DNA of 64,000 nucleotides, taken from Melioribacteraceae bacterium. Its GTDB lineage: Bacteria > Bacteroidota > Ignavibacteria > Ignavibacteriales > Melioribacteraceae. Positions 30,548 to 33,514 of the stretch are shown here, one piece after another (positions within the stretch are counted from its first letter, which is position 1; the number at the start of each line of letters is the position of its first letter). The DNA lies in NCBI GenBank assembly GCA_016927595.1, contig JAFGMI010000019.1:1-64000 (forward strand), given 5' to 3'. The translations under genes and the position numbers were made by a program. A model generated the notes under the pieces. It did no database searches and was not told the origin of the DNA. It saw only the letters and a list, made by a program, of their open reading frames with translations.

Positions 30548-31324
30548 TTAAAAAATTAATGTCCATAGCAGATAATCGAGAATCAGTATGAGTGCAGACG
30601 AAATAACAAATGAACGGATGGTTGATTGCCCTACACCTTCGGCGCCCCCCTCCGTAAGAAAGCCGATGTGACAACCAAGCAAAGAGGTTACTCCTCCAAA
30701 AGCAATGCCTTTAAGCATGCCAAACAAGAAATCGCCGATGTAGAAAAAACGTTTCACCGAATCAAAGAAAACATCGAATGAAACTCCCAGGAAATAATTA
30801 GATATCACAAAAGCACCTGCAACAGCTATCACATTCGCAATTACAACCAGGACAGGCATCATGAAAACTGCAGCGTAAAATCTCGGCATCGCAAGATACA
30901 TAACCGGACTTATACCCATAACTTCCAATGCATCAATTTGTTCGGTTACTTTCATCGAACCAATTTCCGCCGCAATAGATGCACCGACTCTCCCGGCTAT
31001 AACAATAGCGGTTAATACCGGTCCCAGTTCCGTTATAATTGCCCTGCTGGTTGCTGTTCCTAAAAAAGATAAAGGTGCAATTCCTTTTAACTGGTAAGCA
31101 GCCTGCCATGCAGCAACAGCACCGGTGAAAATTGCAATTATAATCACAAGCGGAAGTGAATTTACTCCGATATGTTCCATTTGGTAAAAAAGCAGATTTC
31201 GCTTTTTAAATAAGTCGGGTGTGAACCTGATTATTGTACCGAACAATTTTCCGAATTGTCCAACTTCCTGAATAAAGTTAAGAGTCTTACTGCCTATTTT
31301 CTGAAACAGAATAGTCATTATCAC
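30548..31324 (-). CDS. mlaE: MlaE-family ABC transporter permease
   Basis: ATSRAIITELGPVLTAIVIAGRVGASIAAEIGSMKVTEQIDALEVMGI. Confidence 0.92.
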   Translation of the reverse strand: MIMTILFQKIGSKTLNFIQEVGQFGKLFGTIIRFTPDLFKKRNLLFYQMEHIGVNSLPLVIIIAIFTGAVAAWQAAYQLKGIAPLSFLGTATSRAIITELGPVLTAIVIAGRVGASIAAEIGSMKVTEQIDALEVMGISPVMYLAMPRFYAAVFMMPVLVVIANVIAVAGAFVISNYFLGVSFDVFFDSVKRFFYIGDFLFGMLKGIAFGGVTSLLGCHIGFLTEGGAEGVGQSTIRSFVISSALILILDYLLWTLIF

Positions 31325-31480: not shown

Positions 31481-31488
31481 TATATTTG
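31481..31488 (+). promoter_or_regulatory. Candidate TAnnTTTG -10 element of ilvE leader transcript
   Basis: TATATTTG exact match to the Bacteroidota-type -7 motif; no clear -35. Confidence 0.4.
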
Positions 31489-31526
31489 CACTATAATTTA
31501 TAAATCGAACATTTTAATTGTGAAGA

Positions 31527-31637
31527 ATGTTTTATTATATCCTTTACGGTAACTTTGATTTGACGACGACTATATGTCGCAAATCATATATGATGCCCGG
31601 TATGCCCTCCACCGGGCATTTTTATTTCTTTTATTAA
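31527..31637 (+). promoter_or_regulatory. Candidate leader peptide ORF upstream of ilvE (MFYYILYGNFDLTTTICRKSYMMPGMPSTGHFYFFY*)
   Basis: Short ORF with run TTG ACG ACG ACT ATA (Leu-Thr-Thr-Thr-Ile), extends through the terminator hairpin. Confidence 0.4.
31593..31632 (+). terminator. Intrinsic terminator/attenuator in ilvE 5' leader
   Basis: Perfect 9-bp stem atgcccggt (31593-31601)/accgggcat (31611-31619), 9-nt loop, followed by tttttatttcttttatt. Confidence 0.8.
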
Positions 31638-31653
31638 TAAGAATGGTGGAAAT

Positions 31654-32724
31654 ATGTCAGAAATAATATTTGAAACTCTGGAAACTGATACCGAAGTAAA
31701 AATTCCTGAAAAATTAATATTCGGGAGAACGTTCACAACACATATTTTCGAAATGGATTATGATGTTTCTCTTGGCGGCTGGAACAGTCCTAAAATAAAA
31801 AAACTCGAATCTCAGCATATGAGTCCCGCTGCAATGGTACTTCATTACGGTCAGGCAATATTTGAAGGATTAAAGGCATTTAAACAAGCCGATGGAAAGA
31901 TTGCAATGTTTCGACCGGATAAAAATATCGAGAGAATGAATAACTCTGCCAGACGTTTATGTATGCCCGAACTCGACCCGGATTTATTCATGGAAGCGTT
32001 GACCGAGCTTGTAAAGATTGATAAGAAATGGGTCCCGACAGAACCGGGTTACTCGCTTTATATAAGACCATTAATGTACGCTTACGATCCTTTCCTTGGA
32101 GTAAGACCAGGTAATAATTACAAATTCATTATCATGCTCAGCCCTGTGGGACCTTACTATCCGGAAGGATTTAAACCTGTCCCAATAATGGTAACCGACA
32201 AGTATGTACGAGCAACCGCAAAGGGAGTAGGCGACTGCAAGTGCGCGGGAAATTATGCCGCCAGTCTGCTCGCTCAGCGCGAAGCTCAGCAGCAAGGTTA
32301 TACACAGGTTCTTTGGCTTGATGCAATTGAACAGAAATATATAGAGGAAGTAGGAACAATGAACATCTTTATTCAATTTAAAGATGAAGTTGTAACACCC
32401 AAATTAAACGGATCAATTCTTCCCGGCATTACAAGATTGTCGGTAATTCAAATCCTTAAAGACTGGGGATATAATATTACTGAGCGGGATGTTGCTATTG
32501 ATGAAGTAGTCGAAGCCTACGAGAAAGGAAATCTTATGGAAATTTTCGGAACTGGCACTGCTGCCGTAATTTCTTCTCTAAGTAAACTAAAATATAATGA
32601 TACAATTCTTATGTTCAATGAAAACGAAGCCGGTGAACTGGGTCAGAAACTTTACAAAGAAATTACTGATATCCAGTACGGTAAAAAACCAGATTCGTAT
32701 AAATGGATGCTATCTATCGAATAA
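31654..32724 (+). CDS. ilvE: Branched-chain amino acid aminotransferase
   Basis: LHYGQAIFEGLKAF, YIRPLMYA, GDCKCAGNYAASL, EVGTMNIFI motifs. Confidence 0.95.
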   Translation: MSEIIFETLETDTEVKIPEKLIFGRTFTTHIFEMDYDVSLGGWNSPKIKKLESQHMSPAAMVLHYGQAIFEGLKAFKQADGKIAMFRPDKNIERMNNSARRLCMPELDPDLFMEALTELVKIDKKWVPTEPGYSLYIRPLMYAYDPFLGVRPGNNYKFIIMLSPVGPYYPEGFKPVPIMVTDKYVRATAKGVGDCKCAGNYAASLLAQREAQQQGYTQVLWLDAIEQKYIEEVGTMNIFIQFKDEVVTPKLNGSILPGITRLSVIQILKDWGYNITERDVAIDEVVEAYEKGNLMEIFGTGTAAVISSLSKLKYNDTILMFNENEAGELGQKLYKEITDIQYGKKPDSYKWMLSIE

Positions 32725-32776: not shown

Positions 32777-32824
32777 AAAAACTATTTAAGAAGCGGTAAG
32801 GTTTGAAAAATTTTAAAATTTGGC

Positions 32825-32855
32825 TTGACAAGTGCTCATCCGTACACTATATTTG
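32825..32855 (+). promoter_or_regulatory. lexA promoter: TTGACA - 17 nt - TATATTTG
   Basis: TTGACA 32825-32830; TATATTTG 32848-32855; start codon 32879. Confidence 0.7.
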
Positions 32856-32875
32856 TAGTGTACATAAGGACACTA
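32842..32875 (+). promoter_or_regulatory. Candidate LexA operator
   Basis: Perfect inverted repeat GTACACTA-tatttg-TAGTGTAC (32842-32863) overlapping the -10, plus a third half-site ACACTA at 32870-32875. Confidence 0.65.
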
Positions 32876-32878
32876 TAA

Positions 32879-33514
32879 ATGAGCAAAGAACTAACCGACA
32901 GACAAAAGCAAATTCTTAACTTCATAAGAGGCTATATAGAAACAAACGGTTACCCGCCTACTTACAGGGAAATAGGATTTAATTTCAGCATAGCAAGCAC
33001 TTTTGGAGTTAAAAGGCACCTGGATGCACTCCACAAAAAAGGCTTTATCAGAATGGAGGAAAACTCAAGCAGAACTTTATCTTTAACAAGTCTGTCTTCC
33101 CCTGATAATGAAAGAATCAATGATGATGCAATTGAACTCCCCATCGTTGGTAGAGTAGCTGCGGGATACCCGATTCTTGCAGAGCAAAATATTGAAGGCA
33201 GTATTACAATATCAGCCTCAATGCTGAAAAACAAAACCGGTTCCTTCGGACTAAAGGTTAAAGGTGATAGTATGATAGAGGCTGGGATATTCGAAGGTGA
33301 TGTAGTTATTGTAACTCCTCAAAAATCCGCCAATAACGGTGACATAATAATCGCAATGCTCCAGGATGAAGCTACACTTAAGAGATATGAAAAAAAGGAA
33401 AATACAGTCTACTTAATTCCTGAAAACAAAAACTACAATATAATTGAAGTTAACAATCGTGAAGACTTTTCGATTATTGGTAAGGTTCTCGGGGTCTTCC
33501 GCTGGTATAATTAA
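32879..33514 (+). CDS. lexA: LexA repressor
   Basis: N-terminal wHTH (RQKQILNFIRGYIETNGYPPTYREIG), AAG cleavage-site region, VKGDSM catalytic Ser, EATLKR catalytic Lys. Confidence 0.95.
   Translation: MSKELTDRQKQILNFIRGYIETNGYPPTYREIGFNFSIASTFGVKRHLDALHKKGFIRMEENSSRTLSLTSLSSPDNERINDDAIELPIVGRVAAGYPILAEQNIEGSITISASMLKNKTGSFGLKVKGDSMIEAGIFEGDVVIVTPQKSANNGDIIIAMLQDEATLKRYEKKENTVYLIPENKNYNIIEVNNREDFSIIGKVLGVFRWYN

Follow-up and report, generated by a model that had tools for sequence, protein, structure and literature searches.

The ilvE gene of a Melioribacteraceae bacterium (genome G000; GenBank assembly GCA_016927595.1) lies downstream of a 329 bp intergenic region that separates it from an mlaE-family gene and contains a GC-rich hairpin with a T-rich tail. 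What does an intrinsic terminator do directly in front of a gene for amino acid metabolism? The locus is part of a 64 000-nucleotide stretch of contig JAFGMI010000019.1 (positions 1–64 000, forward strand), referred to here as the window. Since the mlaE-family gene is divergent, the hairpin is not its gene-end terminator. An earlier note on this DNA had proposed a transcription attenuator with a leader peptide; the hairpin, the T-tract, both candidate reading frames and the TATATTTG box were all found in the sequence where it had placed them, and the divergence of mlaE (30548–31324, minus strand) from ilvE (start at 31654) was confirmed. The ilvE product scores 465 bits with the NF009897 profile, which has a cut-off of 307, and is also above the cut-off of TIGR01123 (ilvE_II). 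The features of the locus are as follows.

30548–31324, minus strand: mlaE-family ABC permease gene, the divergent neighbour (TIGR00056 above cut-off)
31481–31488, plus strand: TATATTTG, a Bacteroidota-type −7 promoter-like element (from sequence)
31517–31550, plus strand: H1, the 5′ leader hairpin (predicted, minimum free-energy fold)
31520–31552, plus strand: alternative GTG mini-ORF VKNVLLYPLR*, a rival leader (from sequence) that stops just 5′ of H2
31527–31637, plus strand: leader ORF (ATG) of 36 codons passing through the terminator; homologous start in genomes G054 and G045
31556–31586, plus strand: H2, the hairpin immediately 5′ of the terminator, which holds the putative control-codon region (fold and covariation)
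31557–31623, plus strand: core two-hairpin RNA element (H2 and terminator), as matched by model R1, built from Ignavibacteriaceae only
31563–31574, plus strand: codons ACG ACG ACT ATA (Thr-Thr-Thr-Ile), with codon ends at −29 to −20 from the terminator stem
31592–31620, plus strand: intrinsic terminator stem-loop with a T-rich tail at 31620–31634 (from sequence); position shared by 29 family members and by Ignavibacteriaceae
31604–31610, plus strand: terminator loop GCCCTCC, conserved in two families even where the stem or the reading frame is altered
31654–32724, plus strand: ilvE, branched-chain amino acid aminotransferase, the putatively regulated gene (profile matches)

The terminator consists of a 5′ arm ATGCCCGGT (31593–31601), a loop ATGCCCTCC (31602–31610) and a 3′ arm ACCGGGCAT (31611–31619), followed by TTTTATTTCTTTT. 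Its stem ends 34 nt before ilvE, which leaves scant space for a further promoter. Upstream, the motif TAnnTTTG occurs in eight of 21 leaders against 3.4 expected, and the TATATTTG box lies 111 nt 5′ of the terminator in both G000 and G054 and 118 nt 5′ of it in G045; this lends modest support to a promoter-like role of the box, and transcription is predicted to start at about 31495. The leader ORF would be translated as MFYYILYGNFDLTTTICRKSYMMPGMPSTGHFYFFY and stops 40 nt beyond the start of the terminator stem. On the 3′ side of ilvE lies lexA, apparently in several relatives as well (lexA starts in L036–L059), and the lexA promoter (window 32820–32880) contains a palindromic TAGTGTAC...GTGNNCACTA-like box that is probably the LexA operator of the group.

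The leader RNA is structured well beyond chance. Folding of 31490–31632 gives z = −5.4 relative to shuffled sequences, and H2 plus the terminator (31555–31625, z = −6.1) accounts for most of this structure. Among ilvE upstream regions gathered from 96 genomes, a terminator is located 31–78 nt from ilvE in 29 Melioribacteraceae, with two imperfect ones recognized by eye (G023 and G039); about 30 of some 70 ilvE genes in the family have a terminator directly 5′. The window terminator together with its loop motif is found in eight of 77 family genomes, in one copy each and always at ilvE, and is single in the window genome, immediately 5′ of the gene. A class-wide scan of 393 genomes located the combination in 12, all upstream of ilvE, with one genome having four additional copies elsewhere. 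The covariance model R1 matches the window at 31557–31623 with E = 1.5e-5, a score of which a large share is due to the terminator; this is the sole match in its genome, and the model also hits the corresponding site in seven further Melioribacteraceae. Each of the 11 base pairs of the H2 helix has changes on both sides in the joint alignment, with 97% paired, a result somewhat favoured by the fitting of the alignment to the model; sliding the partners as a control destroyed the pairing. At one locus (L351) the terminator stem is altered by compensation and the loop CCUCC is unchanged. Conservation of the loop for an encoded peptide was ruled out by the close relatives G075 and G079, which read it in different frames. 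On this comparative evidence, the terminator, its GCCCTCC loop and H2 form an RNA element that is conserved, with covariation, 5′ of ilvE in two Ignavibacteriales families. The earlier note had suggested comparison with the amino acid leader families of Rfam; a search of the window and its sister loci against these, T-box, riboswitch and 6C families gave no relevant match at the gathering score. In the window the terminator loop and arm can also pair perfectly with the ribosome site of ilvE (UCCACC, 31608–31613, with GGUGGA, 31645–31650); this pairing was discarded because relatives do not preserve it.

In the sister family Ignavibacteriaceae the element reads GAUUCAUUAAG-[UUCUACCCCCC]-CUUAAUGAAUC-UUCCCC-AU-GCCCGGU-[AGCCCUCC]-ACCGGGC-U tract. 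It starts directly after a promoter-like box upstream of ilvE, a leader ORF is not evident in it and, by eye, another promoter-like box lies between it and the gene. This two-hairpin RNA (L216–L226 and L334–L352), with a C6 loop and a CCCUCC terminator loop, is not in Rfam and reaches six copies in G108, the highest number per genome, and four in G433; it resembles an sRNA whose loops are C-rich. 6C RNA and other small RNAs with C-rich loops are found in Actinobacteria and Staphylococcus. The Ignavibacteriaceae version resembles them in its C6 loop, UUCCCC linker and CCCUCC terminator loop, but it matches no Rfam family and differs in hairpin order, length and lineage, and the window version lacks the C6 loop.

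The leader peptides of the family point to isoleucine. When the longest ORF is taken irrespective of its content, Ile makes up 26.4% of Melioribacteraceae leader codons against 13.5% in dinucleotide shuffles, with Leu and Val near expectation and Phe, Ala, Lys and Arg low, so that neither a generic hydrophobic peptide nor A+T content accounts for the enrichment. The leader ORFs are predictions and many of the genomes are draft metagenome assemblies; some tests chose ORFs by Ile/Leu/Val content, with the shuffles handled identically. The Ile/Leu/Val count exceeds the shuffle mean in 28 of 29 leaders with a terminator; examples of Ile-rich leaders are MKKILEINIIILGLIVIII* (G021), MNFLIQNLILILVLPLIIIV... 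(G009), LYIDFLLLIIISNLVIIKIIT... (G063) and MSGINLYIILNILGIIMTFSDF* (G047). Between close relatives the leaders differ, by eye, mostly by synonymous changes or by exchanges among Ile, Leu and Val. The single leader below the mean is that of the window, with four Ile/Leu/Val codons against 6.2 (p = 0.92, dinucleotide shuffles). Its ATG frame is conserved in G000, G054 and G045, and the aligned peptides of the latter two contain LITI and IIISRLIV; FDLITISS of the sister G054 corresponds to FDLTTTIC in the window. The Thr run (ACG ACG ACT), which the earlier note had singled out together with the following Ile, is confined to the window genome, where it occupies the exact position of the relatives' Ile codons; Thr or Thr-Ile as control codons was therefore rejected. 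Likewise, no counterpart of the GTG mini-ORF with a conserved start was seen in relatives, and it was set aside as the leader, though retained as a rival candidate. The RNA structure and the single genomic occurrence of the motif bear out part of the original observation; the Ile/Leu/Val content of the window itself is not beyond chance. The hairpin without its codon run, which had been named as a pattern that would count against attenuation, is what the window displays but not what the family displays.

The Ile codons are also positioned with respect to the terminator. With the terminator's first G-C pair as the zero point, the Ile share of leader codons is 5% at 0–17 nt, 51% at 18–29 nt and 30% at 30–71 nt, and the shuffles are flat at 15–16%. 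In the window, Ile codons are present only at −53 and −20; the latter is the conserved position, and the three Thr codons directly precede it. The ORF extends to at least −19 in 21 of 22 non-redundant ilvE leaders, compared with 51% of shuffles, and of all 29 leaders 13 end before the hairpin, five inside it and 11 after it (16/29 in or after). An ORF running through the terminator, considered atypical at the outset, is common in the family and is key to the probable mechanism. In G009 and G078 the ORF crosses the terminator and its TGA overlaps the ilvE ATG (ATGA), an arrangement that would also couple translation. In an E. coli test system, a ribosome close upstream represses an intrinsic terminator: about 10 nt are protected past the ribosomal A site and 10–15 nt of free RNA are required, repression is nearly complete with a stop codon a few nucleotides from the terminator and is relieved beyond about 27 nt, and ribosomes within 27 nt are modelled as repressing termination (PMC4824070). 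By these distances, a ribosome held at the Ile cluster would just about clear the hairpin, and one that moves on would cover it.

Classical attenuation would additionally call for an antiterminator, which the earlier note could not make out convincingly by eye. In 23 ilvE leaders, pairing of the terminator 5′ arm with the leader had a mean z of about 0 at 30–75 nt, and a classical antiterminator is not supported. The identical test on 27 his leaders of the same order gave a mean z of 2.2–2.9 at 45–75 nt, so the method is able to detect antiterminators and the ilvE result is still negative. Throughout the order, hisG is preceded in nearly every searched genome by ORFs with 3–9 clustered His codons; the stop codons of these leaders lie between −22 and −49 and their last His codon at about −58, and the window genome has one of its own (L247, G000:C7), MKIRTHLHHHH.... 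The hisG leaders of nearly all searched Ignavibacteriales (L227–L256 and L247) combine the His run with a terminator and a classical antiterminator pairing. Classical attenuation thus appears to be used for his, and the ilvE device appears to be built differently. Two ilvE candidates, GGUAAC:GAUGCC around H2 and strand-2 pairings made by the 3′ arm of H2 once it is freed, were found in single sequences only and did not exceed shuffles. Relatives support a leader-peptide attenuator at ilvE by the conserved position of the terminator, the ATG frame and the Ile-rich leaders of the family; they do not support the Thr codons or a classical antiterminator.

The distribution of the attenuator is linked to ilvC. 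Among carriers, 24 genomes lack ilvC and four have it, compared with six and 35 among non-carriers (Fisher p = 3e-9, or 2e-7 when restricted to the more complete genomes), p-values that overstate independence because the members are related; all the evidence is comparative. On the IlvE tree, about 5.6 phylogenetically independent pairs are concordant and 0 to 0.1 opposite (median sign-test p of 0.03). With ilvC missing from most carriers, IlvE can hardly serve branched-chain amino acid (BCAA) synthesis from pyruvate or threonine there, so that switching the gene on when isoleucine is at hand would be sensible. The window genome has ilvC and ilvD and is one of the four ilvC-bearing carriers; a long BCAA leader, separate from that of ilvE, belongs to its ilvD operon. 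The ilvD leaders (L259, G000:C16, and L257–L282) are about 50–60 codons long with a conserved Ile/Leu/Val tail, ...ILLGIIIISLL...LIG*, which in the window genome is NNIIILGIIVILSLLGLNILVG*; their CTAGGGAT stretch, which encodes Leu-Gly-Ile, is complementary to a GATCCCTA-like strand further 3′. The final hairpin lacks a U-tract, so this may be an unusual switch.

We suggest, with a probability of about 0.45, that the ilvE leader is a compact ribosome-occlusion attenuator of the pyrBI type that is on when isoleucine is available. The premature terminator would be under translational control. With isoleucine available, a ribosome would pass the Ile codons, trail RNA polymerase closely and cover the 5′ arm of the terminator, and the polymerase would read on into ilvE; with a ribosome stalled at the Ile codons, or with none, the hairpin would be free and transcription would end. 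In the leaders whose ORF stops within or beyond the hairpin, a ribosome in motion must still be on the RNA when the hairpin forms and when polymerase arrives at the T-tract; without an antiterminator, termination would then be expected only on stalling or in the absence of translation. We infer from this the sign of regulation (ilvE on with isoleucine). The 27 nt figure also allows the reverse: termination could be relieved by a ribosome held up between −19 and −28, which would give the opposite sign.

That opposite sign is what feedback attenuation of the classical kind would produce: starvation for isoleucine (or for Thr or BCAA) would stall the ribosome and let ilvE be read through, by way of an antiterminator such as GGUAAC (31548–31553) with GAUGCC (31592–31597) or because the stalled ribosome would itself extend as far as the hairpin, which would agree with the reported test system, where ribosomes at distances of up to 27 nt repress termination (PMC4824070). 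The window genome does use leaders of this kind for his, plausible antiterminators can be drawn by eye for single leaders (GGUUUAGUUU:AAACUAAAGCC in G074 and GGCAUUA:UGAUGCC in G047) and the mini-ORF VKNVLLYPLR* stops on the would-be strand 2. We nevertheless consider it unlikely, given the absence of an antiterminator signal above shuffles in the 23 leaders, the extension of the ORFs to or through the terminator and the absence from most carriers of a biosynthetic pathway to derepress. Quite improbable is a separate small RNA gene (31495–31630) that ends at the hairpin and acts in trans through the CCCUCC loop, with no attenuation of ilvE. The Ignavibacteriaceae version, with its C-rich loop, begins at the first hairpin after its own promoter-like box, solitary extra copies exist in G108, G433, G093 and G100, and the CCUCC loop stays constant while the stem changes by compensation; however, the 34 nt gap in the window is too short for an ordinary second promoter, and the Ile-rich leaders of relatives would be left unexplained.

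The window itself counts against an isoleucine-gated occlusion attenuator: it lacks the Ile enrichment and is among the four exceptions that keep ilvC. As judged from its sequence, the architecture is intact and the Ile cluster is eroded; with ilvC and ilvD still present, regulation here may be weak or altered. The window attenuator may be weak, shifted towards Thr plus Ile, or in the course of being lost, as in the sister genome G053, a congener without a terminator of this kind. Taken further, it would be a decaying relic whose terminator merely lowers ilvE expression constitutively. In favour of this are the lowest Ile/Leu/Val score of the 29 leaders, the prototrophy of the genome for the ilvC/ilvD pathway, the absence of the terminator from G053 and the degraded terminator of the ilvC-bearing G025; but the terminator, loop, H2 and leader start of the window are all intact and its RNA is strongly structured, and we regard a mere relic as rather unlikely.

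The classical his, trp, ilv and leu attenuators share with the ilvE leaders an ORF with cognate codons that follows a promoter and precedes an intrinsic terminator, with an amino acid gene behind it; the window has the short ORF 5′ of the terminator, and the family the cognate codon run. Unlike them, the ilvE leaders have no detectable antiterminator, their ORF enters the hairpin instead of stopping clear of it, their codon cluster lies 18–29 nt from the terminator instead of about 58 nt, most carriers have no biosynthetic pathway and the window has no cognate run. The pyrBI attenuator of E. coli is translation-coupled and of the occlusion type. The ilvE leaders resemble it (it is also mentioned in PMC4824070) in an ORF that runs to or through the terminator hairpin, where a trailing ribosome would block folding, and in the absence of an antiterminator; the signal would be charged isoleucyl-tRNA read through clustered Ile codons, as opposed to UTP sensed through polymerase pausing in pyrBI. 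Among the papers searched, none described leader-peptide attenuation in Ignavibacteria, whether at ilvE or at other genes.

Also rather unlikely is a unified reading in which the roughly 65 nt RNA of H2 and terminator, with its invariant CCCUCC loop, would be a new Ignavibacteriales RNA family with two roles: a trans-acting small RNA in Ignavibacteriaceae, where the C-rich loops could bind Shine–Dalgarno-like targets, and, in Melioribacteraceae, the RNA released by termination at an isoleucine-gated, positive ilvE attenuator. If so, the amount of the small RNA would report isoleucine supply. The codon-position signature described here could be used to find such occlusion attenuators elsewhere, and the conserved RNA element adds to this a structure absent from Rfam. 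If the sign of regulation is as proposed, these bacteria would use an amino acid leader peptide in reverse, with readable codons permitting expression and unreadable ones shutting the gene. Such a leader would work without an antiterminator and accompany the loss of a biosynthetic pathway, and it would show how a feedback device is rewired as an anabolic enzyme turns catabolic.
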